From: Sulfurimonas paralvinellae | Lineage (GTDB): Bacteria > Campylobacterota > Campylobacteria > Campylobacterales > Sulfurimonadaceae | Direction of reading: 5' to 3' | Assembly (NCBI RefSeq): GCF_014905135.1 | Contig: NZ_CP041406.1 | Coordinates: 806,001 to 870,000, forward strand | DNA: 64,000 nt | In this document: piece by piece, positions 9,636-28,813 of the stretch | How the letters are laid out: each line of letters starts with the position of its first letter | Position numbering within the stretch: the stretch's first letter is position 1 | Position numbers and translations under genes: made by a program | The notes under the pieces: generated by a model | What the model saw: the letters and a program-made list of their open reading frames with translations, nothing else | Told to the model about the DNA's origin: nothing | The model's database searches: none

Positions 9636-9683
9636 GTATTTATCTCTATTCATAATTTAAAAAATATGAATAGAGATAAATAC
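9636..9683. promoter_or_regulatory. 19-bp perfect inverted repeat between divergent genes
   Basis: The arm GTATTTATCTCTATTCATA (9636-9654) is exactly complementary to TATGAATAGAGATAAATAC (9665-9683), with a 10-base A/T spacer. It lies between the start of the 56-residue minus-strand gene (9620) and the start of the plus-strand membrane gene (9700). The position suggests an operator for a dimeric regulator controlling both, or a transfer-origin-type dyad. Confidence 0.7.
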
Positions 9684-9699: not shown

Positions 9700-10410
9700 A
9701 TGCAAAATAATCAAAATCCATACTCAAACAACAGTCCCTATACGGTAAACAATCCCTATCAAAGTTCAGATAACAGCGTAGATAAACAAATGCAGGCTCA
9801 ACGGCGATTAGACCAAGAACGAAAACAACAGCAATATAAGTTTTAGTGTGAACTAGCACTTGATAGTATTACACATGAGTTTTTAAGTGCCGAGCATAAT
9901 CAACTTAACAGTTGGAACCTAAATGCAGGAGATAAAGCAGCAGTTATCCGTTATTATAAGAGATATTGGGATAATCAATTTGTCTCATTATCCATTGTAG
10001 TTATGGTGATAACTACTATCTTGTCATTTTATACGCCTCTTGCATTCATTGGCATATTTGTAGTATTTATGCTTCGTGAATTTTATGCACAGCGTGTTTT
10101 TTTAACATATATGCTTAATGATCACGAATTAAGTCGTAAGCAAATTACCGAGATCAAAGATAAAATCTTCTATAAGCAACTAAAAACAACTACCACTATA
10201 ATATTTACTCTATTTCTGATGGCTATAAGTTTTGTATCGTATTATTATTCAACAACGATATTTATAGAGCCAGCGAAATATCAAAAAGTGATAGAAATCC
10301 TTTCAAAACTCAGTCCATTTCACCCAGAAAATGAACTATTTGCATACACAAATATTATGGCTATTTTTGCCTTGTTGCTTTTGAAAACTTACGAAAAATG
10401 GAGTAAATGA
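9700..10410 (+). pseudogene. membrane protein of the transfer module, interrupted by an in-frame TAG
   Basis: The ATG at 9700 follows AAGGAAG. The frame reads a Asn/Gln/Pro-rich soluble head (starting MQNNQNPYSNNSPY) to a TAG at 9844-9846. It then continues open in the same frame for 188 more codons to 10408-10410. The second part holds an amphipathic segment and then two or more hydrophobic segments (around bases 9990-10075 and 10195-10260, with another near 10355-10385). No ATG, GTG or TTG exists in frame before the ATG at 10003, which lies inside the first membrane segment, so a separate downstream gene starting there is unlikely. With the stop suppressed the product would be about 236 residues. 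It ends one base before the coupling-protein gene and is probably its membrane partner. It is either a nonsense mutant, a sequencing error or a read-through gene. Confidence 0.75.
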
Positions 10411-10411
10411 G

Positions 10412-11944
10412 ATGTTTTTTGCAAAAACAAAACCTCAAAAAACATCTAACTTTGGCCAATATGCACCATCAAGTGTATACGGTCGAGGTTTAACATCTGT
10501 ACAATCCGCACAAGATGAGTTGTTTAATGAGCATATCCCATTCAAACCTCTTAATCTTATTAGCATTGAAAAACAATTTTTCGGACTTGAGCTACATTCA
10601 AAGCAGCCATTTTATATGCCGTATGAAGATAGTACACATTTACTATATTGCGGACCTACAAGGTCTGCAAAAGGTGTGGCACTATCACATAGAGTCGTAG
10701 AAGCCTTTAAACAGGGAAAAGGTGTCATTATCATTGACCCAAAAAAAGATGATTTTTTACCTCAGGTAATCACAGAAGAACTTCAAAGACAAAACAGGAT
10801 AGATGATCTCGTTATAGCTTCATATCCAAATAATTTTTCCTACTCAGGTTTCGACAAATCTGACACATACAGAGAGTTTGCAAACAAACTTATCGTTGCA
10901 CTCGATTTAGCCCCAAGTGGCGATCCAAAATCAGATTTTTATCGTCGTAATGAGCGGACACTTTTAAAAAAAGTAGTAGATATATTTTTAAACTCATTAT
11001 CTTTACTGGATATCGAATTTGAGATGAATTACAAGAGCCTTGCAAACTTCATTAAGTATCTCTATTTGGATTTATCTGCCACTCAAAACTACAATCATGA
11101 AATCTCAAAAAACAAACCAAATATGGATCTGATAGAGCGATATTCAAAACGATACTTTGATCCAGATTTGTTCCAAAAATTGGAACTGTCATTTGATGAA
11201 ATTTCTACTCTTAAAGGGTTGCATCAAACCATTTTAGAGCTATGTGATGCAAATATTTACACTCAAATAGATATTTCGGATGCCTTATACAATGGAAAAG
11301 TTATCTATATACAAGCCGATCAGCTCGATGAAGCGAGTCTAAAAATGCTTAAAATTTTACAGGTCGATATCATCCAAAAAGCTAAGAAAAAAAGAGCAAA
11401 TTGCATAGTGATAGCTGATGAAGTAAGTTTTTACGCTACAAAAACGCTTTCAGATAGCCTCTCCACGATAGCAGGATTTGGAGTGCATTTTATTCTTGCA
11501 TTGCAAGACCTTGCTCAACTAAATGATGAAACAATAAAAAACCCAATCCTTTCCAACTGCCAAACAAAACTTTTTTACAAAAGTAGCGATATCGAAACGC
11601 TTGAGTACATAGAAAAAATATCAGGTTTGGAGCTTGTAACCCAAACCACAAAACATCAATCAGATATTACTATCCGACAGATTCAAGAACCGCTACTAAA
11701 CATTACGCGACTTCGAGCACTCAAGCGAGACAGAGTTGCTGTACTTATCGTCGAATCACTCAATACCCCTGTGATAGTGCAAACTTGGCATATTGAAGTA
11801 AAACAAAAATTTGACTGGTCAAAACACGACAAATTGATATTTAAGCCGAAAGTCTCACAACTCTCAAAAGATTTTAGAGTCGAGCTAAAACGAGAGAGCT
11901 TTGATGAAGTTGCACAAGAGCCGAAAAAGGAGCTTCAACTATGA
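10412..11944 (+). CDS. type IV secretion coupling ATPase, VirD4/TraG/TraD type
   Basis: 510 residues. The Walker A region is CGPTRSAKGVAL near residues 80-91, followed by the typical strand GKGVIIIDPKKDD. The Walker B-like segment is CIVIADEVSFYA near 330-341, then an FILALQDLAQL sensor-like strand. This is the coupling-protein family that recruits DNA-protein complexes to a conjugation channel. It lacks its own N-terminal membrane helices, which are probably supplied by the preceding (interrupted) gene. Its stop overlaps the next gene by ATGA. No channel genes accompany it. An alternative is a TraM-recruitment (TraD_N-like) ATPase, which is the same functional class. Confidence 0.85.
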   Translation: MFFAKTKPQKTSNFGQYAPSSVYGRGLTSVQSAQDELFNEHIPFKPLNLISIEKQFFGLELHSKQPFYMPYEDSTHLLYCGPTRSAKGVALSHRVVEAFKQGKGVIIIDPKKDDFLPQVITEELQRQNRIDDLVIASYPNNFSYSGFDKSDTYREFANKLIVALDLAPSGDPKSDFYRRNERTLLKKVVDIFLNSLSLLDIEFEMNYKSLANFIKYLYLDLSATQNYNHEISKNKPNMDLIERYSKRYFDPDLFQKLELSFDEISTLKGLHQTILELCDANIYTQIDISDALYNGKVIYIQADQLDEASLKMLKILQVDIIQKAKKKRANCIVIADEVSFYATKTLSDSLSTIAGFGVHFILALQDLAQLNDETIKNPILSNCQTKLFYKSSDIETLEYIEKISGLELVTQTTKHQSDITIRQIQEPLLNITRLRALKRDRVAVLIVESLNTPVIVQTWHIEVKQKFDWSKHDKLIFKPKVSQLSKDFRVELKRESFDEVAQEPKKELQL

Positions 11945-12531
11945 TTACAGATAGAGATATCGAGATTTTCAAGTTTATCAACAAATATGGCAAAAGTTAT
12001 ATCGAGGTGCTTGCAAAAACTTTTTTTACAAACGAACAAGTCGCACGCAATCGGATGAATATTTTAGCAAAGCAAAATCTTATCACCTACTGGAATACAA
12101 ATCTCATGAAACCTCGCCGTGCAATAGTACTCACCTCCGATACAAAATCAATGCTTGAAAATGATTTCGATATAACACCACGAAACGCTAAACTCAACCG
12201 TACAACCATACAGCATAATATCATCGAGCAAATCGTTGATTTTCATTTATCTAAAATCGGTACCGTTGAGAGAACAACAGTTTATACTCATAAAGAGAAA
12301 TTGCACCATATTCCAGACTTCATTTTTATAAATGGATCTGGCAATAAAATCAATATCGAGGTGGAGCTAACGAAAAAATCAGCTCCTAGGTATGCTAAGT
12401 TGATGCAGTCAGTTTCAAAGGACAATCCCGATGCGATCATCTATGTTTTAACTTCCAAAGAGAAGATAAAACCCTTTGCAACTATTATGCAAAATGGCAT
12501 AAACTCTTTTTTATCAGCGTTGATGATCTGA
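11941..12531 (+). CDS. winged-helix plus nuclease-like protein of the replication-relaxation type
   Basis: 196 residues as a simple frame. The N-terminal 70 residues form a winged helix (KYGKSYIEVLAKTFFTNEQV, then ARNRMNILAKQNLITYW). The C-terminal part has PDFIFIN followed by INIEVELTKKSAPRYAKLM, a PD-(D/E)XK-like pattern seen in the replication-relaxation family of mobilization proteins. It overlaps the coupling protein gene by ATGA, which supports a transfer role. The annotated end is doubtful: a T TTT TTA heptamer at 12507-12513 precedes a coding-like -1 frame that runs to 12605 and would add about 30 residues. Confidence 0.65.
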   Translation: MITDRDIEIFKFINKYGKSYIEVLAKTFFTNEQVARNRMNILAKQNLITYWNTNLMKPRRAIVLTSDTKSMLENDFDITPRNAKLNRTTIQHNIIEQIVDFHLSKIGTVERTTVYTHKEKLHHIPDFIFINGSGNKINIEVELTKKSAPRYAKLMQSVSKDNPDAIIYVLTSKEKIKPFATIMQNGINSFLSALMI

Positions 12532-12605
12532 TAAAAAATATTGATCAAACAGGACAGATCAAGCCAATTCCGCAGGAGCAGAGTTTGTTTGAAACTCCTA
12601 TTTGA
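12507..12605 (+). other. candidate -1 frameshift site and C-terminal extension
   Basis: In the zero frame the codons are TCT TTT TTA, giving the slippery heptamer T TTT TTA. Shifting back one base opens a frame reading ISVDDLIKNIDQTGQIKPIP and then QEQSLFETPI to TGA at 12603-12605. This tail is protein-like, while the zero frame stops 18 bases on. The site could be a programmed frameshift or a one-base indel in a run of six T. Confidence 0.6.
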
Positions 12606-12694
12606 TACTCCATTTAAAAGTTTATTCAATCCGTAAACAAACTTTTAAATGATATTGCGGTGCTAAAACCTCCTAAGGTCGGTGTTATCACCTT

Positions 12695-12904
12695 GTGGGC
12701 GCGTCAGGAGTTACCTCCCGACCCCGATGTCCCATCGAGTATTTGTTGAAAACAAAAAATTAACGCAGCAGCGAGCGTTAACATTTTCTTTTAATCAAAA
12801 CTCGACCACCATCAAGTTTATCCACAACTTGCCCCTCCCGGCAACTGGCTGTCTAAACTGAATGGTTTGAGCCATCGGGGTCTGGAGAATCCAGACGCGC
12901 CCAC
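12695..12904. repeat. 210-base nested inverted repeat
   Basis: GTGGGCGCGTC (12695-12705) pairs exactly with GACGCGCCCAC (12894-12904). Inside it GACCCCGATG (12720-12729) pairs exactly with CATCGGGGTC (12873-12882). The stretches between the two stems (14 and 11 bases) are also partly complementary (GGA, TT, CTCC against GGAG, AA, TCC). This makes a nearly continuous stem of about 30 pairs. The enclosed 143 bases contain two smaller hairpins. It is a structured RNA, an origin or a transfer-origin candidate. Confidence 0.6.
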
Positions 12905-13070
12905 ACTCCGTTACGACATTTTTAAAAAATCACCTCCCAGGTAATTTCTTTAAAAATATCTGATCTTCGTGATTTCTCGCAAAGTAAAGAAAAGCTGGAT
13001 GGCTTTTCTATCTATCTGCATTGTGGATTTCACTTGCGTTCAATCTTTTTTATTTTTTGTAGTTTCTTTT

Positions 13071-13226
13071 AAACTTCAAGCCCTTTTAAGACAAGAGAAT
13101 TTTAACGCACTGTAAGGCTGACATAAAAAATAAAACTTCTTTTATTTTTCTGCAAGCATAGTGCAATTCTTTGTCTTTGTTCAAAAGGGCATTTAAGCCC
13201 AAAAGAACATGAGAGTCTTGAAGTTT
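13071..13226. promoter_or_regulatory. 156-base extended hairpin upstream of ardA, candidate single-strand promoter
   Basis: Successive complementary blocks run inward. AAACTTCAAG (13071-13080) pairs with CTTGAAGTTT (13217-13226). GCCCTTTT (13080-13087) pairs with AAAAGGGC (13183-13190). AAGACAA (13088-13094) pairs with TTGTCTT (13171-13177). GAATT pairs with AATTC, and GCACT with AGTGC. The apical block is AAAAATAAAA (13126-13135) with TTTTATTTTT (13140-13149) around CTTC. It ends 72 bases before ardA. The layout resembles leading-region promoters that work on the incoming single strand. Confidence 0.55.
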
Positions 13227-13297
13227 TTTCAACTTCGCTGGTTTCGACTTGTAGTCGCCAAATATTTTACGAAAACATTTGATAAAAGGATCACATC

Positions 13298-13828
13298 ATG
13301 AGAGTTTATATCACAGACTTAGAGGCTTACAATAATGGTCGTTTAGTTGGAAGTTGGTACGAATTGCCAATGAACAAAGATGAGCTTACGCAAGCTATAC
13401 AAAACGAGTTGCAAAAAGGGCAACAAGTTTGTGAACATGCCCATACGCACGAAGAATATTTTATCTCAGATTTTGAGTATGATTATATGAAAATCGACGA
13501 ATACGACAGCCTTGATGAACTCAATGAAATTGCACAAAAAATTGAAAAGTTGGACGAAAGTGAGAAAATGGCAGTAAAAATGATGGTTGAAAACCATATA
13601 GTGAACTCCATAGATGAAGCTATAGAAAATCTTGAAAATATGATCTGTACAGGAGAAAACAGTATGGAGGATATAGCTTACAATTATATTGAAGAGAGTG
13701 GGCTACTACAAAGAATGCCGGAGAATTTACAAGGATATTTTGATTATGAGGCGCTTGGGCGTGATATGGAGATTGAAGGGAACTATTTTAGAGATGAAAA
13801 TAATATTTTATGGGAGTATGTAGGATAA
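13298..13828 (+). CDS. ardA: ArdA antirestriction protein
   Basis: 176 residues, close to the family length. The N-terminus MRVYITDLEAYNNGRLVG followed by SWYELP is diagnostic of ArdA, and the protein is highly acidic, as expected for a mimic of bent DNA that blocks type I restriction enzymes. ArdA is usually expressed early in the recipient from the leading region of conjugative elements, and this gene stands behind an unusually folded non-coding region. A Shine-Dalgarno AAAGGA precedes the ATG. Just after it, AGGATA and TATCCT form a small hairpin over the stop codon. Confidence 0.9.
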   Translation: MRVYITDLEAYNNGRLVGSWYELPMNKDELTQAIQNELQKGQQVCEHAHTHEEYFISDFEYDYMKIDEYDSLDELNEIAQKIEKLDESEKMAVKMMVENHIVNSIDEAIENLENMICTGENSMEDIAYNYIEESGLLQRMPENLQGYFDYEALGRDMEIEGNYFRDENNILWEYVG

Positions 13829-13907: not shown

Positions 13908-16900
13908 ATGCTTTTAGATAATAAAAAAAATGGTAGAGTTGGTGATGTTTTAAAACAAAACATCACCAACAATTCAAAACTCTCTATTATCTCAGGCTAC
14001 TTTACCATCTACGCCTTTGCAGAGTTAAAAAAAGAACTTAGCAAAATTAAGGAGCTAAGGATTCTCTTTAGTGCACCGATTTTTACAAATGGATATACCA
14101 ACAACTACCTATCTGGTGAACCAGAAGAGATAAAATTTAAAAATCAACTACAGCAGGTTAAAATTGCTCGTGAGTGTGCAACATGGATAAAAGAGAAGGT
14201 TCAAGCCAAAGAGGTTAAAACTGCGGGTGCTATCCCTTTTAATCTCTATCACATTGATAATAACACAGCAATTACAGGAAGTTCTAACTTCTCCTGCGTT
14301 GGTCTTGGATATGCAAGCTCCTCCACCTTTGCTATGAATACATTGGCAAAAGATGCCCAAACAACAAAAGAGTTTTTAAGCACTTTTGATGAAGTGTGGA
14401 ACAACAAAGAGATGGTTCGTGAAGTCAAGCAAGAGATACTCGAAGCGATAGAGGAGATTTATAGCGACAAATCCCCACAGTTTTTATACTTTATGACCCT
14501 TTATAATATTTTCAAAGAGTTTCTTGGTGAACTTGACGAAGAGAAAATCATACGGACAAAAACAGGGTTTAAAGATACCATTGTATGGAATAAACTCTAT
14601 AATTTTCAAAGAGATGGTGTGCTTGGTGCAATAGATAAGCTTGAAAAATACAATGGTTGCATCATTGCAGACAGTGTTGGGCTTGGTAAAACTTTTGAAG
14701 CACTTGCCGTTATCAAGTATTATGAGCTAAGAAACGATAGAGTCTTGGTTTTAGCTCCAAAAAAACTAAGAGAGAACTGGTCTATCTACACCATAAATGA
14801 CAAAAGAAATATACTGGCTGAGGATAGATTTAACTATGATGTTTTAAACCATACAGATTTATCACGCTCAAAAGGGATGAGTGGGGAGATAAACCTCTCT
14901 ACTCTCAACTGGGAGAACTATGACCTCATAGTCATAGATGAATCACACAACTTTAGAAACAGTGGCACAGCAAACAAAAAGAAAAAAACAAAGTCAAGAT
15001 ATGCACGGCTTTTAGAAGATGTTTTACAAAAAGGTGTAAAAACAAAAGTGCTTATGCTATCAGCAACCCCAGTAAACAACAAACTAAACGACCTTAAAAA
15101 TCAAGTAGCATTCATTACAGAAGCAAACGATGAAGCTTTTGCCTCACAAGGTATCAAGTCTATAGAACAGACACTTAGAAAATCGCAAACCAAATTTAAT
15201 GCTTGGATGAAGTTAAGCGAAAAAGAGCGAACTACCGCCAAGCTTTTAGACAGTCTCAATTTTGACTACTTTAAACTGCTTGATTTAATCACCATTGCAA
15301 GAAGCAGAAAACATATTGAGAAGTATTATGATACGACCAATATTGGCAAATTTCCGCAAAGAAATAAGCCACTCAATCTAAAACCCGACATCGACACTTT
15401 AAACGCATTTCCTCCACTGAGCGATATAAACAAAACCATAAGAAGACTCTCATTGTCTGCTTATTCCCCTTTAAAGTATGTCTATCCGCACAAGCAAGAG
15501 GAGTATGCTCAAAAGTATGATATTGATTTAGGTGGAGGACGGGTTTTTAGGCAGTCTGATAGAGAAAATTCTCTTATCCATCTCATGCGAGTAAATCTAC
15601 TCAAGCGGATGGAAAGCTCCATAAACTCTTTTTCATTAACGCTTATTAAGCTGATAGAAACAAACCAAAAAATCATAGATTTAATAGACAATCATGTAAG
15701 CAGTAGCTTTGAAGAAGCAAGCATAATAGATGTAGATATAGAAAGTGACGCATATGCTTCACAACTCATAGGAAACAAAGTAAAAGTCTTAATCTCTGAT
15801 GTAGATAAAATCAAATGGAAACAAGATTTACAAAGTGATTTAGATAAGCTTGAAGAGTTGTTGGCTAACTCTATTGAAGTGGATAACAAAAGAGACAATA
15901 AACTCAAAATCCTCAAAGAAAATATCAAGCAGAAAATCCAAAACCCTTTTAATGCAAACAACAAAAAGGTGATTATCTTCACAGCCTTTTCAGATACAGC
16001 CGAGTATCTCTATCAGAACATACATCAGTGGGCGAAAAAGGAGTTTGGAGTTGAGAGTTGTCTCATAACTGGAAGTGGCACAAACAAAACAACTCTAAAC
16101 ACAAAACACAAAGACTTAAACTCACTCCTTACTCATTTCTCCCCTATCTCAAAAAGTAGAGCCAAAACCAACCCAGAAGCTACAAAAGAGATAGATATAC
16201 TCATAGCAACCGATTGTATATCCGAAGGGCAAAACTTGCAAGATTGTGATTATCTCATTAACTACGATATTCACTGGAATCCTGTAAGAATCATCCAAAG
16301 ATTTGGTCGTATTGATAGACTTGGTTCAACCAACGAAACGATACAGCTTGTGAATTTTTGGGCAAATATGGAGCTTGACGAATACATAAACTTAGAAAGC
16401 CGTGTAAGTGGTCGAATGGTATTGCTTGATGTCTCTGCAACTGGAGAAGAAAACATCATAGACACGCAAACCACAGGTGATATGAATGACTTATCATACC
16501 GTGCAAAGCAGTTAAAAGAGCTTCAAGAGACAGTTATAGACCTTGAAGATGTCAGTGGTGGTATATCCATCACAGACCTTACTTTAAACGACTTTAAAAT
16601 GGATTTAATGGGCTACCTTAAAACAGATGAAGCAAAACTACAAAAAACGCCTCTTGGTATTCATAGCGTAGTATTAAATCAAGACGAAGCAAACGACTCC
16701 ATAGAGAAGGGAACTATTTTTTGTCTCAAGCTTTTAAAAAATGAAGTGCAAACAGACAACTACTCATTAGAGCCTTACTACTTGGTTTATGTAAATGAAG
16801 AGGGTGAAGTCAAACTAGGCTTTAGCAGTGCCAAAACCATACTCGACATCTACAAAAAACTCTGTATGGGTCAAGAGAGAGCCATACAAGATGCAGTAAC

Positions 16901-17102
16901 ACTTTTTGAAAATGAAACAGACAACTATAACAATATGAACAAATACACCACACAGCTACAAACAGCCATTGAGAGTATTATAGGGAAAAAAGAGGAGAGT
17001 GGAATGGACTCACTTTTTTCTCGTGGTGGCACAACTATTTCAAGCGACACCATAAGCAACATAGAAGATTTTGAACTTATATCTTACTTGGTTATAAAAT
17101 GA
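13908..17102 (+). CDS. PLD-domain SNF2-type helicase, defence-associated
   Basis: 1064 residues. Residues 1-185 are phospholipase D-like, ending in a single HKD-like element, LYHIDNNTAITGSSNFS, in which the usual Lys after His-x is Asp, so nuclease activity is uncertain. Residues 230-850 are an SF2 helicase: ADSVGLGKTFE near 254 (Walker A), VIDESHNF near 343, LMLSATPVNN near 382, IIFTAFSDTAEY near 688 and QRFGRIDRLGS near 797. A C-terminal domain of about 220 residues has no motif I recognise. It overlaps the DUF4391 gene by ATGA and lies upstream of mod and res. The same helicase/DUF4391 pair is known to me as a recurrent neighbour of type III methylases. The coding start is followed by a 14-bp perfect hairpin. 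Confidence 0.85.
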   Translation: MLLDNKKNGRVGDVLKQNITNNSKLSIISGYFTIYAFAELKKELSKIKELRILFSAPIFTNGYTNNYLSGEPEEIKFKNQLQQVKIARECATWIKEKVQAKEVKTAGAIPFNLYHIDNNTAITGSSNFSCVGLGYASSSTFAMNTLAKDAQTTKEFLSTFDEVWNNKEMVREVKQEILEAIEEIYSDKSPQFLYFMTLYNIFKEFLGELDEEKIIRTKTGFKDTIVWNKLYNFQRDGVLGAIDKLEKYNGCIIADSVGLGKTFEALAVIKYYELRNDRVLVLAPKKLRENWSIYTINDKRNILAEDRFNYDVLNHTDLSRSKGMSGEINLSTLNWENYDLIVIDESHNFRNSGTANKKKKTKSRYARLLEDVLQKGVKTKVLMLSATPVNNKLNDLKNQVAFITEANDEAFASQGIKSIEQTLRKSQTKFNAWMKLSEKERTTAKLLDSLNFDYFKLLDLITIARSRKHIEKYYDTTNIGKFPQRNKPLNLKPDIDTLNAFPPLSDINKTIRRLSLSAYSPLKYVYPHKQEEYAQKYDIDLGGGRVFRQSDRENSLIHLMRVNLLKRMESSINSFSLTLIKLIETNQKIIDLIDNHVSSSFEEASIIDVDIESDAYASQLIGNKVKVLISDVDKIKWKQDLQSDLDKLEELLANSIEVDNKRDNKLKILKENIKQKIQNPFNANNKKVIIFTAFSDTAEYLYQNIHQWAKKEFGVESCLITGSGTNKTTLNTKHKDLNSLLTHFSPISKSRAKTNPEATKEIDILIATDCISEGQNLQDCDYLINYDIHWNPVRIIQRFGRIDRLGSTNETIQLVNFWANMELDEYINLESRVSGRMVLLDVSATGEENIIDTQTTGDMNDLSYRAKQLKELQETVIDLEDVSGGISITDLTLNDFKMDLMGYLKTDEAKLQKTPLGIHSVVLNQDEANDSIEKGTIFCLKLLKNEVQTDNYSLEPYYLVYVNEEGEVKLGFSSAKTILDIYKKLCMGQERAIQDAVTLFENETDNYNNMNKYTTQLQTAIESIIGKKEESGMDSLFSRGGTTISSDTISNIEDFELISYLVIK
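13938..13970. repeat. 14-bp perfect inverted repeat in codons 11-21 of the helicase gene
   Basis: GTTGGTGATGTTTT (13938-13951) pairs exactly with AAAACATCACCAAC (13957-13970) with a 5-base loop. It begins 30 bases after the start codon. As RNA it would be very stable and could slow early elongation. As DNA it could be a protein-binding site. Confidence 0.7.
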
Positions 17103-17833
17103 TACAAGAACCTATACACAATCTTAAAATCCCACACGAGTGTAAGATAGGCAAAAGGCTAACAAAAAAGCAGTTTCTTGAAAACTTCTCTCTCAAAGCC
17201 AATGAGAAAAAAATCCTTAAAGAGGATATTCAAAGCATCACTTTGGAGTATCTACTTAACAAACACAACATCAACATAGCGCCATTTGTAGATGAAGAGA
17301 ATGATTACTCAGAGATAGCCTTTATACAAGTGGAGATTCTAAACCAAAGCAAGTTAAAGTCCATAGCGACAATTGTTCAGTATATCCCATACCCTCTAAT
17401 CGTATTTTTTATCTATAAAAATTCACTCTGCATAAACATAAGCCCAAAACGCATCAATAAAAACGACAGCACGAAGCTAGCTGTAGAAGAGTCATACTTT
17501 ACAAACTGGATAGACCTTGAACAGACTAACTCTTTAGAAGAAGATTTTCTTAAAAGCTTAGAGATTCAAAACCACCCTTTTACAGATTTTCTATCATTTT
17601 ACAACAGTTTTTTAGATAAAATAGTAGCATTTAATGCCTCTGCTTACAGTGGAAGTTTGAGTGTCAATGAAGAGACGAAAACCATACTTGACGAGATAGC
17701 ACAGTGCGAAACCAAGATAACAGAGCTAAAAAACAAGATAAAAAAAGAGACGAACTTTAGCGACAAGGTCAATATGAACATAGAGCTGAAAAAAATGAAG
17801 AATAAAATAAACGATTTGAAAGGAAAACTGTAA
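17099..17833 (+). CDS. DUF4391 protein
   Basis: 244 residues. The order of conserved pieces, GKRLTKKQFLENFSLKANEK, then EYSEIAFIQVEIL-like and QYIPYPLIVFFIY strands, then SPKRINKND and EESYFTNWIDL, fits DUF4391. The C-terminal 50 residues form a charged coiled coil. No catalytic residues are evident, so it is likely a partner or specificity subunit of the upstream helicase, with which it overlaps by four bases. It is followed by a structured 64-base sequence rather than directly by mod. Confidence 0.8.
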   Translation: MIQEPIHNLKIPHECKIGKRLTKKQFLENFSLKANEKKILKEDIQSITLEYLLNKHNINIAPFVDEENDYSEIAFIQVEILNQSKLKSIATIVQYIPYPLIVFFIYKNSLCINISPKRINKNDSTKLAVEESYFTNWIDLEQTNSLEEDFLKSLEIQNHPFTDFLSFYNSFLDKIVAFNASAYSGSLSVNEETKTILDEIAQCETKITELKNKIKKETNFSDKVNMNIELKKMKNKINDLKGKL

Positions 17834-17840
17834 TGATAAT

Positions 17841-17904
17841 CTCAAAGAGTTCTAGCTCGAAGCTAGCACAGCCAAATATCTTGAACGATTTGGCACCCTT
17901 TGAG
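17841..17904 (+). ncRNA. candidate three-stem structured RNA between DUF4391 and DUF3800
   Basis: The outer stem CTCAAAG (17841-17847) / CTTTGAG (17898-17904) encloses two hairpins. The first is CTAGCT / AGCTAG with loop CGA (17852-17866). The second is GCCAAAT / ATTTGGC with a 10-base loop (17871-17894). All stems are perfect. It starts 7 bases after the DUF4391 stop and has no terminator-like T run. It could be a processed leader, an attenuator or a small RNA. It is not a tRNA. Confidence 0.5.
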
Positions 17905-17948
17905 GAGTTGTGTAATTATACAACAATTAAAAGATTAAAGGAAGGTTC

Positions 17949-18761
17949 GTGAAATTAATATATGTAGATGATTCTGGAAATACAGGAAAAAAACTAGATG
18001 ATATATTGCAGCCTTTGTTTTTACTTGGTGGTTTTATAATAGATGAAGATAATTGGAAAAAAGTTGATAAGGCTATAGCAGATATAAAAATAAAATACAA
18101 TATAGAAGATATGGAAATACACTCTATAGAGATAATGAATGGGAAAAAAGGAACTCCATATCAAGATTGGGCTTATGAGAAAAAACTACAATTTTTTTCA
18201 GATATTTTGCAAGTTATTCAAAAATTTGACTTAAAAGTAATCTATTTTTCAGTTAAGAAGATAAACTTTAAAAGATATTTTCAATCAAAATATGGAAAAG
18301 ATTTTGAACAACAGTTTAATATCTCTCCATATTTACTTGCTTTTTCTTATATGCTCCAAATTGCGGATTCTTATCTTGTATCTCAAGATTCTAATGGAAT
18401 GCTGATATTAGATGAGCAAGATGAGTGGAAAAAACCAGCAAATAAAACTTTTAATCTTTTAACCACACTTATAGATGAACCGGAAGTGCAAATAGAAAAA
18501 CTTCTTGATAGGAGTTTTTTTGTAGAATCAAGTGAAAGCAATATGATACAACTTGCAGATGTTATAGCATACACTACAAAACGATATTTAGAATTAGAAA
18601 TTAGGGAACTTAATGATAAAAAAAGAGATGAAAGAATAAAACTTTATTATATATATAAAGACAACATCTACAAGCCAAATTTTGAGTATGGGAGTCATTC
18701 TATATTGAAGTGGTTAGAAGATAATATTGGCAACCAAACGAAGGATAAACCAATTGGTTAG
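17949..18761 (+). CDS. DUF3800 protein, predicted nuclease-like
   Basis: 270 residues with a GTG start after AAAGGAAGG. The N-terminal KLIYVDDSGNTG, central LGGFIIDEDNW and MEIHSIEI, and C-terminal ESNMIQLADVIAYTTKRY are the conserved acidic patches of DUF3800, thought to have an RNase H-like fold. The catalytic Asp/Glu positions (DDSG and QLAD) are kept. By eye its codons are much more AT-rich than those of DUF4391 and the mod ends, and it has its own leader and hairpins on both sides. It therefore looks like a later insertion into the defence operon. DUF3800 genes are often found in defence islands. Confidence 0.8.
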   Translation: MKLIYVDDSGNTGKKLDDILQPLFLLGGFIIDEDNWKKVDKAIADIKIKYNIEDMEIHSIEIMNGKKGTPYQDWAYEKKLQFFSDILQVIQKFDLKVIYFSVKKINFKRYFQSKYGKDFEQQFNISPYLLAFSYMLQIADSYLVSQDSNGMLILDEQDEWKKPANKTFNLLTTLIDEPEVQIEKLLDRSFFVESSESNMIQLADVIAYTTKRYLELEIRELNDKKRDERIKLYYIYKDNIYKPNFEYGSHSILKWLEDNIGNQTKDKPIG

Positions 18762-18771
18762 TCACTGTTGG

Positions 18772-18798
18772 CTGCCGATACAATGGTATTGTAACAGA
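18772..18798 (+). repeat. hairpin after the DUF3800 gene
   Basis: TACAAT and ATTGTA pair around GGT near 18779-18793, within an outer CTGTT / AACAG pair. It lies between DUF3800 and mod and matches the position of the dyads before DUF3800, so the gene is bracketed by hairpins. Confidence 0.45.
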
Positions 18799-18829
18799 AA
18801 ATAGTTAAAATTTCAAGAGGTAAAAATAT

Positions 18830-20671
18830 ATGAAAAAATTAGATGGTAAAAGTTTAGATATAGTGAGTGAAAATGTAGAGAAGTTAAAAGAGCTATTCCC
18901 TGAAATTTTTGAAGAAGGGAAAATCGACTTTGAAAAGCTACAAAATGAGCTTGGCAAGTTTATAGACAAAGAGCAAGAGAGATACAACTTCACTTGGAAC
19001 GGCAAACAAGAAGCCAAAAAGATAGCCCAAACTCCATCTACTGGAACACTAAGACCTGCACCAAACGAGTCTAAAAACTGGGACACTACACAAAACCTCT
19101 ACATAGAGGGTGATAACCTTGAAGTGTTAAAACTTCTACAAAAATCTTACCACAAAAAAGTCAAAATGATATACATAGACCCACCTTACAACACAGGCAA
19201 AGACTTTGTCTATAAAGACAACTTCAAAGACAATATTAAAAATTATCTTGAAGTTACAGGGCAAGTAGATAGTGAAGGAAATAGACTAAGCACAAATAGT
19301 GATACAAATGGGAGGTATCATAGTGATTGGCTTAGTATGATGTATCCGCGACTCAAACTTGCAAGAAATTTACTTAAAGATGATGGGGTTATTTTTATAA
19401 GTATTGATGACAATGAAGTGGCAAATCTTAGAAAGCTTTGTGATGAGATTTTTGGGGAGGATAATTTTGTAGGAAATATTATATGGCAACATAGTATTCA
19501 AGGTAAAGGTTATGGAGGTAAATTGTCAATACATCATAATCATATTTTAGTATTTAGTAAAAATACTGATTTTGAATTAGGAATGTTTAAAAGAACAGAA
19601 GAAGATAATAAAAATTATTCTAATCCAGATAATGATCCAAATGGAGATTGGCGAACAGGAGATGTGAGAAATGCACTTGATAGACCAAATTTAAAATATA
19701 ATATTACTACACCCAGTGGAAATATAATTAAACATCCAGATAATGGATGGAGATGGAGCAAAGAAACATTAAATGAAAAAATTAAATCTGGTGAAATTAT
19801 TTTCAATGAAGATGAAACAAGAATAATCAGAAAAATTTATTTAAAAAATCAAGAAGGTAGAGTTCCTGAAAGTATATTTGATGGAAAAAAATTTGGAACA
19901 ACACGAGATGGAACAACTGAGTTAAAAGATCTATTTAATAAGCCTCCTTTTGATACACCTAAACCAACTTTATTAATTAGAAAGATAATGGAGTTAAATT
20001 GTCATGAAAATGACTTTATCTTAGACTTCTTCTCAGGCTCAGCCACAACAGCCCATGCTGTGATGCAACTCAATGCAGAAGATGGAGGAAAGAGAAAATA
20101 TATTTGTGTCCAAATCCCCGAACCAACAGATGAAAAAAGTGAAGCCTACAAAGCAGGATATAAAAACATCTGTGAGATAGGAAAAGAGAGAATAAGAAGA
20201 GCAGGAGAAAAGATAATAGTCGACAATCCAGACAAAGATTTATCAAATCTTGATATAGGTTTTAAAGTATTTAAACTTGATAGCTCCAATATAAAAGAGT
20301 GGGATAGTGATTTTGATAATTTAGAGCAAAACCTCCTTGATGCTACTGAAAATATCAAAGAAGATAGAACAAGCGAAGACCTACTCTATGAAATCCTCCT
20401 CAAATATGGACTTGATTTAACTCTTCCTATTGAAGAAAAAATTATTGATGGCAAGAAAGTGTTTATTATAGGTTTTGGTGCATTAGTAGTTTGCCTTGAT
20501 GACAATATAACAACTGACATAGTTGAACAAATAGCTGACCTAAAAGAAGAATATGAAACTGAAGTGATGCGAGTAGTATTTAAAGACAGCAGTTTCAAAG
20601 ATGCTGTTGTCAAAACAAATGCTATTCAGATACTAAAACAGCATGGTATTGATGAAGTCGTGAGTGTGTAA
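18830..20671 (+). CDS. mod: type III restriction-modification DNA methyltransferase (Mod)
   Basis: 613 residues. The methylase motif IV YIDPPYNTG is near residues 114-122 and motif I DFFSGSATTAHAV near 400-412. That permuted order is the beta class used by type III Mod, giving N6-methyladenine. The target recognition region lies between the two (about 140-395). That middle part is visibly richer in A/T-ending codons than the two conserved ends, so the recognition domain has probably been exchanged. Mod works alone as methylase and with Res for cleavage. Here Res does not follow directly: the KAP gene is inserted with no gap. Confidence 0.93.
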   Translation: MKKLDGKSLDIVSENVEKLKELFPEIFEEGKIDFEKLQNELGKFIDKEQERYNFTWNGKQEAKKIAQTPSTGTLRPAPNESKNWDTTQNLYIEGDNLEVLKLLQKSYHKKVKMIYIDPPYNTGKDFVYKDNFKDNIKNYLEVTGQVDSEGNRLSTNSDTNGRYHSDWLSMMYPRLKLARNLLKDDGVIFISIDDNEVANLRKLCDEIFGEDNFVGNIIWQHSIQGKGYGGKLSIHHNHILVFSKNTDFELGMFKRTEEDNKNYSNPDNDPNGDWRTGDVRNALDRPNLKYNITTPSGNIIKHPDNGWRWSKETLNEKIKSGEIIFNEDETRIIRKIYLKNQEGRVPESIFDGKKFGTTRDGTTELKDLFNKPPFDTPKPTLLIRKIMELNCHENDFILDFFSGSATTAHAVMQLNAEDGGKRKYICVQIPEPTDEKSEAYKAGYKNICEIGKERIRRAGEKIIVDNPDKDLSNLDIGFKVFKLDSSNIKEWDSDFDNLEQNLLDATENIKEDRTSEDLLYEILLKYGLDLTLPIEEKIIDGKKVFIIGFGALVVCLDDNITTDIVEQIADLKEEYETEVMRVVFKDSSFKDAVVKTNAIQILKQHGIDEVVSV

Positions 20672-22801
20672 ATGTTAGTTGTAGATAAGCCTATTGAAAG
20701 TATAGATGAAGATTTTTTAAATAGAAAAGATTTTGCTCAAAACATCGCTAAAGCTATTTTAAATTATTCAGATAAAAATAACTCTAGCTTAACAATAGGA
20801 CTTTATGGAAAATGGGGGTCAGGTAAAACATCTATAATAAATATGATTACTGAAAATATTGATGATGTGATTATCTTTAAGTATGAACCTTGGATATTCT
20901 CAGATACTCAACAGTTGATAAGTAATTTTTTTAAAGAATTTGCTAAAGCCATAAAGCACAAGGATTATGCAGAAGATGCAAAAAAAATTGGAGAAGAGCT
21001 TGAAACATATGCAAGCTTTTTTGAACCATTAAGTTTAATACCAGAGCCTACAGTATCTTTATTAAGTTTGGCAAGTGCAAAAGTTTTTGGAAGTATTGGT
21101 AAAGCAAGTAAGAAATGGGGAAATTTAAAGAGTAAAAATCTCTCAACAACAAAGCTATCTATCGAAAAGCATTTACAAAAATTAGACAAAAAAATTTTAA
21201 TTATTATAGATGATATTGATAGGCTTAATAATACTGAAATACGCCAAATATTTCAAATGATTAAAGTATTAGGAAATTTCCCTAATACAATATATTTATC
21301 TTCAATGGATAGAGAAGTTGTTGTTGAAGCATTATCCGAAGTGCAAAAGGGTGATGGAAGTGAATATCTTGAAAAGATAATCAATGTGCCATTTATTGTG
21401 CCAAGTATTAGCAAAGAAGATGTTCAGAAGTTTTTATTTATGAAGCTTGATGAAATCATTGAAGATGCAGATTTTGATAAAAATCATTGGGGAAATATTT
21501 ATCATAGTGGATTTAAAAATTTCTTTTCGACCATTCGAGATGTAGTGAGATATATAAATATTTTTCAGTTTAACTATGGAGTTTTAAAAAATAAAGTTAA
21601 TACCGTTGATTTAATTGCTTCAAGTGCCTTACAAGTTTTTGAACCTAAAATATTTGAATCTATGAAGTATAACAAAAATATTTTTGTTGGCTCAATTCCT
21701 GAAAGTCAATATGGTAGAAATGATGAAAAAGCTAAAATAAAGGAGTTTATTGAAAAGTCATTTGAAAACTTACAAGTTTTATCTCAAGAGGTTTATCTAC
21801 TTTTTTTAAAAGAACTATTTGTTAAAATCAATGAAGTATATTCCAATACACATTATGTAGGTGCTACTTCAAGGTGTAGAAAAGATGCAAAAATTTGTAG
21901 TGCTGAATATTTTGATACATACTTTACAATGATACTAAATGATAAAACACTCTCTAGTTTTGAGATGAAAAGTTTTATTAAAGACCTATCCAATGAAAAG
22001 AAGTTTAGAAACGATATCATATCCTTAAATAGAGAAAACAAGATAACAGACTTTTTAGAAAAATTACAAGATTTTACACAAGAAGACATTGAAATTAGAA
22101 ATTATCAAGTTTTATTTAATGTTCTGATGGACTTAGCAGATACCTTTCCCGAAGAAGATGATGGTATGTTCTCTTTTGGAAACAGTATGCAGGTTATGAG
22201 AATTTTTCATCAGTTATTAAAAAGAATAGACAATAAGGATGAAAGATTTAAAATTATAAAAACAGCTATGGAACAAGCTGAAAACAGTATAAGTATATTA
22301 TCGGAAGAGATAAGTATTTATATGCAAGAACATGGTGAATATGATGGGGATGCAAAATCTGAATCACAATTAACTATAGAAAAAGATGATTTATTGGAAT
22401 TGAAAAAATTACTGTTATTAAAGATTGAACAATGGACTTCAAAATATAGTTTGCTGCAACATAAAAAAGGACTTAGCATATTATATGTTTGGCTGAGATT
22501 AGACGAAAAAAAATCTAAAGAATATATTGCTAAAGAAATTAAAGAGGATAAAAAATTAATAGATTTCTTGAAACTTTTTATATCATATTCTTATAGTCAA
22601 ACAAGCGGAGATTATACCACTAGAAAAAATATAAAATATAATTACGATGGTATAGTAAATTTTATTGATGTAGCTAAAATCATAGATAGAGTTAATGAGT
22701 TAAATATAACTGATGATAAAGATAAATTGGCACAGTATGCAATAGAAAATTTTTTAGCACACTATAACGGTATAGCAATAGTAAATGAGGATGATTTATA
22801 A
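20672..22801 (+). CDS. KAP-family P-loop NTPase
   Basis: 709 residues. Walker A is LYGKWGSGKTSIIN near residues 44-57 and Walker B is ILIIIDDIDRLNN near 173-185, with the long insertion between them typical of KAP NTPases. Downstream is the VRYINIFQFNY helix region found in the family, then a long helical C-terminus. KAP NTPases occur in phage-exclusion systems such as PifA, so a defence role is likely, but the target is unknown. I see no clear membrane helices in the insertion. The gene starts at the base after the mod stop and its own stop shares one base with the res start. It is very AT-rich beside its neighbours. Confidence 0.85.
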   Translation: MLVVDKPIESIDEDFLNRKDFAQNIAKAILNYSDKNNSSLTIGLYGKWGSGKTSIINMITENIDDVIIFKYEPWIFSDTQQLISNFFKEFAKAIKHKDYAEDAKKIGEELETYASFFEPLSLIPEPTVSLLSLASAKVFGSIGKASKKWGNLKSKNLSTTKLSIEKHLQKLDKKILIIIDDIDRLNNTEIRQIFQMIKVLGNFPNTIYLSSMDREVVVEALSEVQKGDGSEYLEKIINVPFIVPSISKEDVQKFLFMKLDEIIEDADFDKNHWGNIYHSGFKNFFSTIRDVVRYINIFQFNYGVLKNKVNTVDLIASSALQVFEPKIFESMKYNKNIFVGSIPESQYGRNDEKAKIKEFIEKSFENLQVLSQEVYLLFLKELFVKINEVYSNTHYVGATSRCRKDAKICSAEYFDTYFTMILNDKTLSSFEMKSFIKDLSNEKKFRNDIISLNRENKITDFLEKLQDFTQEDIEIRNYQVLFNVLMDLADTFPEEDDGMFSFGNSMQVMRIFHQLLKRIDNKDERFKIIKTAMEQAENSISILSEEISIYMQEHGEYDGDAKSESQLTIEKDDLLELKKLLLLKIEQWTSKYSLLQHKKGLSILYVWLRLDEKKSKEYIAKEIKEDKKLIDFLKLFISYSYSQTSGDYTTRKNIKYNYDGIVNFIDVAKIIDRVNELNITDDKDKLAQYAIENFLAHYNGIAIVNEDDL

Positions 22802-25761
22802 TGAAAATACAATTTGAAAGCAATTTAAACTACCAAAATAAAGCAATAAGCTCCATTGTGGATATATTTGAAGGGCAAGAGATTTGTCAAAGTAATTTCT
22901 CTGTCTCTCGTGTTGTAGGCGATACGCTTGGTATCACTGAAAATGAGCTTGGTATTGGTAATAGACTTGAACTTTTAGATGACGAGATACTTGCTAATGT
23001 GCAAAAGATTCAGCTTAAAAATGGACTTCCTCAATCTAAAAAGTTAAGTAGTATGGACTTCTCAGTGGAGATGGAGACGGGAACGGGTAAGACTTATGTC
23101 TATCTCAAAACCATTTTTGAACTAAGTCGTAAATATGGCTTTACAAAATTTATAATCGTTGTACCATCCATCGCCATAAAAGAGGGAGTTAAAAAGACAC
23201 TTGACATAACCACTGAACACTTCAAATCACTCTTTGATAATGTAAATTATGACCACTTTGTCTATGATAGTTCCAACTTAGAGCAAGTAAGAGATTTTGC
23301 AACGAGTAGCGATATTCGCATAATGGTTATAAATATAGACGCTTTTAGAAAAAGCTTCACTGACCCAAGTAAAGATACAAAAGCAAATATTATCCACCGT
23401 CAAAACGATAGACTAAACGGTGAGAGACCCATAGACTTTATCGCTTCTACAAACCCTATACTTATCATAGATGAGCCTCAGAGTGTTGATAATACCTCAA
23501 AGGCAAAAGAGGCTATAGAAAAGCTAAATCCTCTTTGTAAGCTACGCTACAGTGCTACACACATAGAGAAGTTCAACCTTATGTATAAACTTGACTCTAT
23601 TGATGCATATGAGCAAAAACTTGTAAAACAGATAGAAGTTGCCAATGTAAAAATAGACGACAGTTCAAACAAAGCATACATAAAACTTCTAAGTGTAAAA
23701 GCCAACCCAAGAAGTGCAAAAGTAGAGATAGATATAACAAAAAATGGCAATACAAGCAGAAAAACCATAACCATAAAAGATGGAAGCGATTTATATGAAC
23801 TCTCTAATGGTCGTGATGTGTATAGTGGCTACACCGTCAATGATATTTATATCGAAAAAGGGAATGAATATATCGAATTTTCGAATGGAGAAAGTGTAGG
23901 TATCGGCGAGGTTATAGGTGATATAGATGATGATAGCATTAAACAGCTTCAAATACGAAAAACAATTGAAGAGCATTTAGATAAAGAGCTGCGTTTGACC
24001 TCCAAAGGGATTAAGGTATTGAGTCTCTTTTTTATAGATAGAGTGGCGAACTATAGAACCTATGACGAAGAGGGAAATCCCCAAAAAGGAAAATATGCAC
24101 GATGGTTTGAAGAAGCCTACAAAGAGATAAGCCAAAAAAGAAAATACAAAACCCTCTTTGAAGATGTAGATATTAGCGCCGATATTGAAAAAATCCATGA
24201 TGGATACTTTGCACAAGATAGAAGTGGCAAACTCAAAGATAGCACGGGTAAAAATAAAGATGATGAGAGTGCATTTGACAAGATTATGAAAAACAAAGAG
24301 AAACTGCTTAGTTTTAGTGAGCCTTTGCGATTTATATTTTCTCACTCTGCACTCAAAGAGGGATGGGATAACCCCAATGTTTTTCAGATTTGTACTCTTA
24401 ATGAAACAAATTCTGTAATGAAGAAAAGACAAGAAATTGGTCGTGGGCTTAGAATATGTGTCAATCAAGACGGAGAGAGGGTTCAAGGCTTTTATGTCAA
24501 TACATTAACCGTTATGGCAAATGAAAGCTATGAAGAGTTTGCAAAAAGTCTGCAAGCAGAGATAGAACAAGAGGAAGGAATTAAGTTTGGTGTTATAGAG
24601 GAGCACTTTTTTGCAAATATACCTATAAAAAATGAAGAGGGTGATGTAGAATACTTTGGAGCCGACAACAGTGAGGCTATATTTGCATATCTCAAAGAGA
24701 ATGATTATATAGACTCAAGGGGTAAAATACAAGATAGCCTCAAGCTCGATATAAAAAATGAGAAGTTTGAAGTGCCTGCCGAGTATCAAAATTTACAAGC
24801 TGAAATAACATCAGTCATCAAAAAAATTGCGGGTAATCTCAACATAAAAGATGCAAGCGACAGAAAGCTTGTAACGCTTAACAAAGAAGTGTTACTAAGT
24901 GATGATTTTAAAGAGTTGTGGGAGAGAGTAAAATACAAAACTACTTATAGAGTAGATTTTGACATTGATAGTTTAGTGAATAAGTGTGCTGAGAAAATTG
25001 CAAATGAACTCACCATTGGTAAGATTAAGTATCTCTATTCTAAAGCAAAAAATAAAATCACAAAAGTTGGTGTTGAAGTTGATTTAGATAGTGTCAAAGA
25101 GCAGTTTAGCGATGTGGAAATTATAGACTATGAACTACCAGATATTATTACATACCTGCAAAATGAGACAAATTTAACACGCAAAAATATTGTAGATATA
25201 CTTATTAAAAGCGGAAAATTAGAGAGCTTTAAAAACAATCCTCAAAAGTTTATAGATGGTGCTATTAAAATCATAAAAAAGACAATGAGTATATTTATTG
25301 TTGATGGAATCAAATACCAAAAAATCGGCAATGATTCCTACTATGCCCAAGAGTGTTTTGAAGACCAAGAGCTTTATGGATACCTATCTAAAAATATGAT
25401 TGAAAACAGAGAAAACAAGTCTATCTACAACTACACCGTTTATGATTCAGATGTAGAAAAAGGGTTTGCAAGGTCGTTTAATGAAAATGAAGATGTAAAG
25501 CTTTTTACAAAACTCCCTTCTTGGTTTAAAATAAATACCCCTCTTGGTGGATACAACCCTGACTGGGCTGTTCTAATCGAAAAAGACAATGAAGAGAAGC
25601 TATACTTTGTAGTTGAAAGCAAGGGAAGTCTCTTTACAGACGATTTACGAGATACAGAAGAGGCAAAAATAAAATGTGCAACTGAGCATTTTAAAGAAAT
25701 ATCAACAGAGACTCAATTTATACAGTCTAATAATTTTGAGCATATGAGGGAGTTTTTGTAA
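22801..25761 (+). CDS. res: type III restriction enzyme helicase-endonuclease subunit (Res)
   Basis: 986 residues. The SF2 helicase has METGTGKTYVYLKTI near 90 (Walker A), LIIDEPQSVD near 221 (motif II) and RQEIGRGLRI near 541 (motif VI). The C-terminal endonuclease has NPDWAVLIEKD near 919 and LYFVVESKG near 934-942, matching the PD...(D/E)XK core. Res with Mod moves along DNA and cuts between head-to-head unmethylated sites. All motifs are intact, so the enzyme is probably active. It ends 11 bases before a 13-bp hairpin shared with the convergent regulator gene. Confidence 0.93.
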   Translation: MKIQFESNLNYQNKAISSIVDIFEGQEICQSNFSVSRVVGDTLGITENELGIGNRLELLDDEILANVQKIQLKNGLPQSKKLSSMDFSVEMETGTGKTYVYLKTIFELSRKYGFTKFIIVVPSIAIKEGVKKTLDITTEHFKSLFDNVNYDHFVYDSSNLEQVRDFATSSDIRIMVINIDAFRKSFTDPSKDTKANIIHRQNDRLNGERPIDFIASTNPILIIDEPQSVDNTSKAKEAIEKLNPLCKLRYSATHIEKFNLMYKLDSIDAYEQKLVKQIEVANVKIDDSSNKAYIKLLSVKANPRSAKVEIDITKNGNTSRKTITIKDGSDLYELSNGRDVYSGYTVNDIYIEKGNEYIEFSNGESVGIGEVIGDIDDDSIKQLQIRKTIEEHLDKELRLTSKGIKVLSLFFIDRVANYRTYDEEGNPQKGKYARWFEEAYKEISQKRKYKTLFEDVDISADIEKIHDGYFAQDRSGKLKDSTGKNKDDESAFDKIMKNKEKLLSFSEPLRFIFSHSALKEGWDNPNVFQICTLNETNSVMKKRQEIGRGLRICVNQDGERVQGFYVNTLTVMANESYEEFAKSLQAEIEQEEGIKFGVIEEHFFANIPIKNEEGDVEYFGADNSEAIFAYLKENDYIDSRGKIQDSLKLDIKNEKFEVPAEYQNLQAEITSVIKKIAGNLNIKDASDRKLVTLNKEVLLSDDFKELWERVKYKTTYRVDFDIDSLVNKCAEKIANELTIGKIKYLYSKAKNKITKVGVEVDLDSVKEQFSDVEIIDYELPDIITYLQNETNLTRKNIVDILIKSGKLESFKNNPQKFIDGAIKIIKKTMSIFIVDGIKYQKIGNDSYYAQECFEDQELYGYLSKNMIENRENKSIYNYTVYDSDVEKGFARSFNENEDVKLFTKLPSWFKINTPLGGYNPDWAVLIEKDNEEKLYFVVESKGSLFTDDLRDTEEAKIKCATEHFKEISTETQFIQSNNFEHMREFL

Positions 25762-28474: not shown

Positions 28475-28813
28475 ATGTTAGATTCACTTGAAGAAGTTTT
28501 ATTGGATATGAAAGATGAGTTGAAAATTCAAAGACAATTATTGCAACTTGTAATTGAGTCGTTAACAACCAAAAAAGCAGTAGCAAAGTTTTTAGGTGTT
28601 TGCACAAAGACTGTGGAGACAATGACGCAAGATGGACGCCTGATTGAAGGAGAAGCATGGTTTTACAATGAACAAGGTGTGAAAGAATTTATTCCGGATG
28701 GTGTAATAGAAGCAAAACGCAAAAGAGAGTTAAAAAAAGGATCCGTTATTAAAGGTACTAAGCATAAAATGCACCCAACAGCATCAAAATTTATGGTGAT
28801 TAAAAATGGCTAA
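28475..28813 (+). CDS. excisionase-like helix-turn-helix protein
   Basis: 112 residues with a GGAGGAG ribosome site before the ATG. After a helical leader, the segment TKKAVAKFLGVCTKTVETMT followed by QDGRLIEGEAWFY matches the MerR/excisionase-type (HTH_17) fold in which a winged helix reads DNA. The C-terminus is basic. It overlaps the integrase gene by 8 bases, so the two are co-expressed, and it is best read as the recombination directionality factor. A plain DNA-binding role elsewhere is possible. Confidence 0.75.
   Translation: MLDSLEEVLLDMKDELKIQRQLLQLVIESLTTKKAVAKFLGVCTKTVETMTQDGRLIEGEAWFYNEQGVKEFIPDGVIEAKRKRELKKGSVIKGTKHKMHPTASKFMVIKNG

Follow-up and report, generated by a model that had tools for sequence, protein, structure and literature searches.

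A conserved long hairpin upstream of ardA in an integrative element of Sulfurimonas paralvinellae is a candidate single-strand promoter

In a 64,000-nucleotide stretch of the Sulfurimonas paralvinellae genome (the window, meaning the whole of the DNA analysed), the antirestriction gene ardA is preceded by a long interrupted hairpin that is, on balance, probably best explained as a single-strand promoter working like Frpo of the F plasmid. Conjugative plasmids such as F carry leading-region promoters that are active only on the folded transferred strand and drive antirestriction genes. We favour the Frpo-like reading because hairpins of this kind lean toward the template strand, expose a -10-like hexamer in a bulge (classes 1/2) and, in one genome (G184), adjoin a MOBV nic motif. 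RNA polymerase binding, transcription, its timing and the strand transferred by the window's own element are what we infer from these patterns.

The element occupies approximately 9.2 to 30.0 kb of the window, with borders inferred from gene content. That content, which also includes an AAA_25 ATPase, bore out the initial annotation in placing the dyad before ardA within an integrative element, one with a coupling-protein/MobC-like module and an integrase. Related records are named Sulfurimonas, Helicobacteraceae or Campylobacterales. The hairpin lies inside the 766 nt of non-coding DNA that separate the MobC-like gene from ardA, in the following setting:

10412-11944, plus strand: TraG/VirD4-type coupling protein (family match)
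11941-12531, plus strand: MobC-family replication-relaxation protein, 196 aa (weak match to NF041423, 44 bits where the cut-off is 200)
12600-13060, no strand assigned: extremely structured stretch from the mobC-like gene to the hairpin, conjecturally an oriT/origin or EGeRS-like element (fold)
13298-13828, plus strand: ardA, antirestriction protein (PF07275, 127 bits)
28806-29957, plus strand: tyrosine integrase, close to the element's right end (family match)

Behind ardA (13908-25761) are genes for an SNF2/PLD helicase, a DUF4391 protein, a DNA methylase, a KAP NTPase and a type III restriction-type protein, and given this defence island, the antirestriction gene travels with a restriction system. 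Close to the element's left end and ahead of the coupling-protein operon, two perfectly complementary 19-bp arms enclose a loop of 10 nt (9636-9683), an inverted repeat that was not found upstream of the coupling-protein operon in L072, and positions 9700-10410 hold a homologue of a 246-aa gene of L072 that is broken by an in-frame TAG, with a 135-aa C-terminal part remaining open. The non-coding sequence between the MobC-like gene and the hairpin (12531-13070, 539 nt) had z -10.3 on each strand, with related stretches in L002 and L072, and is possibly an oriT, an origin or an EGeRS-like element.

Folded as single-stranded DNA with DNA energies, the hairpin reached -30.6 kcal/mol on the plus strand and -31.2 kcal/mol on the minus strand (z -5.74 and -5.78), and none of 200 dinucleotide shuffles folded as well. 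Among 2456 segments of 156 nt scanned along the minus strand of the 64 kb with DNA energies, only two reached -31.2 (starts 12663 and 12689), both in the structured stretch adjoining the hairpin, and after regression on GC the hairpin ranked first. The initial annotation, made from the letters alone, was therefore right that a long interrupted hairpin is present, as each strand folds as single-stranded DNA far beyond its shuffles, and exactly right about an apical A/T stem of 10 pairs (13126-13135 with 13140-13149, closing a 4-nt loop). Its complementary blocks across 156 bases stood as a hairpin, but the outermost pairing seen in the window (10 perfect pairs, 13071-13080 with 13217-13226) differs from the conserved one, in which CTTAAAACCCTTTT in the 5' arm (here approximately 13074-13087) pairs with AAAAGGGCATTTAAG (approximately 13183-13197); the window sequence is able to form both. 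The fold comprises:

13071-13226, minus strand: long interrupted hairpin, the proposed single-strand promoter, which would be active as the folded minus strand (fold, covariation, strand lean)
13126-13149, no strand assigned: apical 10-pair A/T stem-loop (sequence)

Several ordinary identities were considered for this structure. Rfam at gathering thresholds gave no match to the hairpin and a lax scan only chance-level matches, and an Rfam RNA family or a tRNA/tmRNA was rejected. The genome holds exactly one copy, which, together with compensatory changes between relatives, led us to reject a mobile hairpin repeat (MITE), and an intrinsic terminator was rejected because the T-run is not conserved. 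It is also very improbable that the structure acts as an ardA mRNA leader or attenuator, or as a cruciform or operator in duplex DNA: the plus strand of the window does carry a terminator-like CTTGAAG followed by TTTTTT (13217-13229), but in most relatives it is the less well folded strand, and conservation of the outer stem and T-run breaks down in L007 and L009.

A blastn search against 149 relatives gave any match at all in 19 genomes and, with short or weak matches left out, real copies at ten loci outside the window's own genome. L008 and L031 are one and the same place and entered the counts once. A covariance model built from 11 sequences was then run, with an E threshold of 0.01, against the 135 genomes of the genus and matched 15 of them; two (G010 and G184) were dropped from this count since their matches fell entirely within coding sequence and had E above 0.001, and L035, L036 and L047 (in coding sequence, E above 0.001), as well as minus-strand echoes of real matches, had been excluded before counting. 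This left 15 genuine copies in 13 of the 135 genomes, all of them directly upstream of open reading frames and in one orientation, followed by ardA in nine cases, a small J-domain gene in five and a DUF7249 gene in one. The J-domain and DUF7249 genes would presumably be establishment genes. Searching 398 genomes of the order with the model matched four, of which one locus (L049) was new and in another family. The L049 locus (1500-1940) has a similar hairpin, followed by a small open reading frame and a further gene that we take to be PAPS-reductase-like.

The conserved pairing was accompanied by covariation. Across the 11 sequences, both sides had changed in 15 of 38 pairs compared to 6.4 in shuffles, the covariation score was 0.254 versus 0.104, and 91.1% versus 82.4% of cells were paired; none of 500 shuffles reached the paired-cell share, the double-changed pairs or the covariation score, counts that are not probabilities because the 11 sequences are related to each other. 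The ardA leader that follows is conserved as well, with a palindrome, CAAATATTTTACGAAAACATTTG, and a Shine-Dalgarno-like AAAAGG. Upstream of the hairpin in L069, L071, L073, L076, L078, L079 and L080 small stem-loops recur, their stems variable but complementary and their loop fixed as CCAAGGT or CCACGGT, with five in a row in L080; L076 has a second such module on the same contig (1740-1850), without a long hairpin. Upstream of the class 3 hairpin in L078, L079 and L080 we also observed a conserved inverted repeat, ACATTCTTTTA...TAAAAGAATGT, followed by ACCATCC, which is reminiscent of an oriT.

A second hairpin family (class 4), with no detectable sequence similarity to the first, occupies the same position. 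A class 4 query gave any match in 24 genomes, and, leaving out short or weak matches, 12 loci in 11 of the 135 genomes that spanned most of the query, six before ardA and six before the J-domain gene, two of the latter after one small open reading frame. Including a copy before ardA in another family, 13 copies are known (seven ardA, six J-domain gene), and both sides had changed in 15 of 39 pairs. Two hairpin families without detectable similarity thus serve the same two genes. The genus has 19 ardA matches in 17 of 135 genomes, and 15 of the 19 have a hairpin (nine of the first family, six of class 4), the remainder being L062, L068 and the fragments L065 and L066. Comparing the regions before other ardA genes thus showed a hairpin in most cases within the genus but in few beyond it: among 13 ardA matches listed elsewhere in the order, 11 were folded (L126 and L127, with partial ardA, were left unfolded), and an adjacent hairpin was present at two, L117 (z -4.9) and L125 (class 4, z -3.8). 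The other nine had no adjacent hairpin, although L121 has a structure with z -3.6 far upstream.

The strand on which these hairpins fold better points to the template of the downstream gene. With RNA energies, z was lower on the minus strand, which is the gene template, in 20 of 22 hairpins (mean -4.3 versus -2.7); with DNA energies, z was lower on the minus strand in 17, with one tie, and energy in 20. In class 4, DNA energy was lower on the minus strand in all 13 copies and DNA z in nine, with one tie, six of these hairpins being common to the sets of 13 and 22 with different borders. Consensus RNA energies, minus versus plus, were -9.6 versus -2.8 for class 4 and -20.0 versus -13.3 for classes 1/2. 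Some wobble pairs on the class 4 minus strand are conserved, for example a G-U pair in 12 of 13 copies; in classes 1/2, the wobble count varies with the strand from which the structure came. No lean was found in 120 background segments of the same elements (mean difference 0.03, SD 1.12; minus lower in 42%), in the upstream stretches as a group, or in the window's own hairpin copy, which is symmetric. The leader also folds better on the minus strand, in the same direction as the hairpins, and the idea of the leader as a plus-strand RNA structure was dropped on account of this lean. As a positive control, the F plasmid gave -67.0 versus -59.7 (template versus other strand) for Frpo1 and -61.4 versus -57.3 for Frpo2. 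The leading genes of F run toward oriT and the transferred strand is their template, with which the parts of PMC9849209 on this subject concur.

The same lean could be expected if the minus strand encoded a structured antisense or 6S-like RNA acting on ardA expression or on RNA polymerase, all the more as RNA energies give a larger lean than DNA energies and the leader shares it. 6S RNA is a long hairpin whose bubble imitates an open promoter, whereas the structure proposed here is DNA. Such an RNA nevertheless seems quite unlikely, given that the minus-strand hairpin lacks a following U-run, that Rfam offered no match, and that Frpo of F, which acts as single-stranded DNA, leans likewise.

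The Frpo-like reading gains further from the anatomy of the 3' arm. Read on the minus strand, this arm has a T-rich tract, often followed by TCAG, then 10-13 nt and a -10-like hexamer, which takes the forms TA(A/G)A(A/G/C)T, TATGCT or TATAGT among 28 aligned hairpins. The hexamer is not independent evidence because it was the alignment anchor picked by the analyst; most hexamers match at 4-5 of 6 positions, within AT-rich DNA, while L125 was omitted from the -10 tables since it has no hexamer fitting the rule. In the window, the corresponding parts are:

13118-13135, minus strand: T-rich tract and TCAG in the non-template arm, including one arm of the apical stem, the presumed equivalent of an UP/-35 region
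13102-13106, minus strand: conserved 5-nt bulge in which the upstream portion of the -10-like hexamer has no pairing partner (fold)
13099-13104, minus strand: -10-like hexamer TAAAAT, read on the minus strand (putative function)
13165-13297, plus strand: proposed mRNA start region (predicted at approximately 13170-13178) and conserved leader

The hexamer's second base, an A, lies unpaired owing to a 5-6 nt bulge in every one of the 11 class 1/2 hairpins (mean probability 0.96), among the most open parts of the non-template arm. In class 4 it is partly unpaired (12 hairpins, mean 0.73). In class 3 (four hairpins), the hexamer stays paired (mean 0.11), which counts against the idea of an exposed -10. 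The aligned hairpins have no TTGACA-like -35, and the T-rich tract is in its place. The hexamer faces ardA only when the strand is folded; in duplex DNA it is oriented the opposite way. The single-strand promoter suggested by the initial annotation is thus strengthened by the position before ardA, the covariation, the template lean and the bulged -10 of classes 1/2, and weakened by the lack of a canonical -35.

A transferred strand could be assigned most directly in G184, where a MobV/Mob_Pre relaxase gene is divergent to the hairpin-ardA pair. Approximately 80 nt before the relaxase start, the minus strand, which is the relaxase coding strand, reads GTATAGTGGG/TTATAC, that is, GATAGTGTATAGTGGG/TTATACCC. 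Sections of PMC5090054 and PMC5863519 describe the MOBV nic sites TAGTGTG/TTA and TAGTGCG/TTA on the mob coding strand, the one that is nicked and transferred. By this rule, the motif on the relaxase coding strand makes the ardA template the transferred strand in G184. In G187 and G069, a MobC-like protein, relaxase and coupling protein are encoded on the hairpin's strand (those of G069 by similarity to those of G187), and if relaxase genes enter last, as part of PMC11541004 describes as typical, the transferred strand would again be the template. G193 (L139), in which ardA carries a stop codon, has an operon of NikA-like, relaxase and coupling-protein genes convergent with the hairpin-ardA pair, and there the relaxase-last rule gives the opposite answer, a non-template transferred strand. 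For CloDF13-like modules, the portion of PMC2262945 concerned gives the order oriT-mobB-mobC. An ATCCTG-type nic with inverted repeat was not found near the hairpins, nor were MOBV nic motifs near the other class 4 hairpins.

The G184 nic motif makes the template the transferred strand, but the hairpin lies there at the end that enters last, outside the leading region. This position is, by analogy, also expected of a single-strand origin, at which RNA polymerase or primase would make a second-strand primer after transfer or rolling-circle replication, the proximity of ardA being secondary. The hairpins adjoin mobilization genes, in G184 also the nic motif, and their fold is strand-specific, as in sso1 of ICEBs1, which according to the relevant part of PMC4595007 lies directly downstream of the relaxase gene nicK, and in ssoA of IMESag, where the order is oriT-mob-ssoA; all are strand-specific folded sequences adjoining the mobilization genes of an integrative element. 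In contrast, sso1 and ssoA are defined by second-strand synthesis rather than by a downstream gene, whereas the hairpins described here always stand directly before an open reading frame (after a small one at two class 4 loci) with the leader and its Shine-Dalgarno-like sequence conserved, the downstream open reading frame differs, and what the two hairpin families have in common is the genes they precede, not a mobilization type. Second-strand priming is the closest rival, one that we consider unlikely as the sole role but not negligible, and it may coexist with a promoter; the two explanations overlap, since a primer made on the minus strand would run into ardA anyway.

Likeness to Frpo (ssi) of F, ColIb-P9 and their relatives comprises a long template-strand stem-loop upstream of establishment genes including antirestriction genes, an A/T-rich apical stem, a better fold on the template strand (Frpo1, Frpo2) and, as far as PMC9849209 covers this point, several copies before different genes. 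However, the hairpins described here are shorter (approximately 125-156 nt versus roughly 240), lack a TTGACA-like -35, reside in integrative elements of Campylobacterota, and in G184 lie at the opposite end. No blastn match to known Frpo or any plasmid was obtained in 72,556 plasmid records, and neither hairpin nor leader had DNA similarity in viral contigs, plasmids and phages. Given that no such similarity was detected and that promoter activity is a prediction, we do not file the hairpin in the Frpo family. In the open-licence literature, as far as the sources go, single-strand promoters have been shown experimentally in enterobacterial plasmids, with candidates elsewhere proposed via similarity or consensus boxes, and searches that combined such promoters with Campylobacterota, Sulfurimonas or ardA showed, among the papers listed, none about them in this phylum.

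A structured non-coding sequence before establishment genes is also what EGeRS1 of pLS20-family plasmids represents, and the hairpin could be an element of that kind, acting otherwise on double-stranded DNA or on the transcript. The kind of gene and the position are the same, and the 539 nt upstream of the window hairpin are strongly structured on both strands. In pLS20, as stated in the part of PMC8708921 that deals with these elements, the transferred strand is the non-template, and EGeRS1 therefore cannot be single-strand DNA promoters. EGeRS1 consists of 400-600 bp with inverted repeats, however, and the strand that folds here is the template; the minus-strand lean is seen in hairpin and leader but not in the upstream stretches, and an RNA of the plus strand would favour plus. 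We consider such an element improbable.

If the Frpo-like reading is correct, transfer of the minus strand, or another single-stranded state of it, would allow 13071-13226 to fold on itself, so that the 3' arm would serve as the non-template strand, presenting the T-rich upstream tract and TAAAAT with its first bases unpaired in the conserved bulge. With the promoter mimic already open in this way, RNA polymerase would bind it and copy the 5' arm outwards, and ardA mRNA would be made before the complementary strand exists. Since the -10 points away from ardA in the duplex, formation of the double strand would shut the signal off. The RNA from the hairpin may also prime second-strand synthesis.

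The J-domain gene extends beyond the phylum, with relatives in 2692 plasmid records, of which 2200 are typed conjugative. Very strong hairpins were observed upstream of it in an Acinetobacter plasmid (L151, 6172-6371; -47.5 on the template versus -38.8 on the other strand, z -9.5) and a Plesiomonas plasmid (L152, 6365-6564; -59.1 versus -46.7, z -7.9), and in two stretches folded upstream of the J-domain gene of a Selenomonas plasmid there was no hairpin.

Our study adds hairpin families that are supported by covariation, unrelated in sequence, and located in integrative elements of another phylum, as well as a strand test that does not need a known oriT. More broadly, and tentatively, integrative elements of Campylobacterota might have single-strand promoter families of their own, without detectable similarity to known ones, in which a pre-opened -10 with no -35 would allow antirestriction genes and J-domain establishment genes to be expressed from the entering strand; these might double as priming sites, and some, entering last, might fire once the strand is complete and circular. 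If the single-strand promoter reading holds, early expression from incoming single strands would be more widespread as a device, and the small J-domain gene, found on many conjugative plasmids too, would be a candidate establishment factor.
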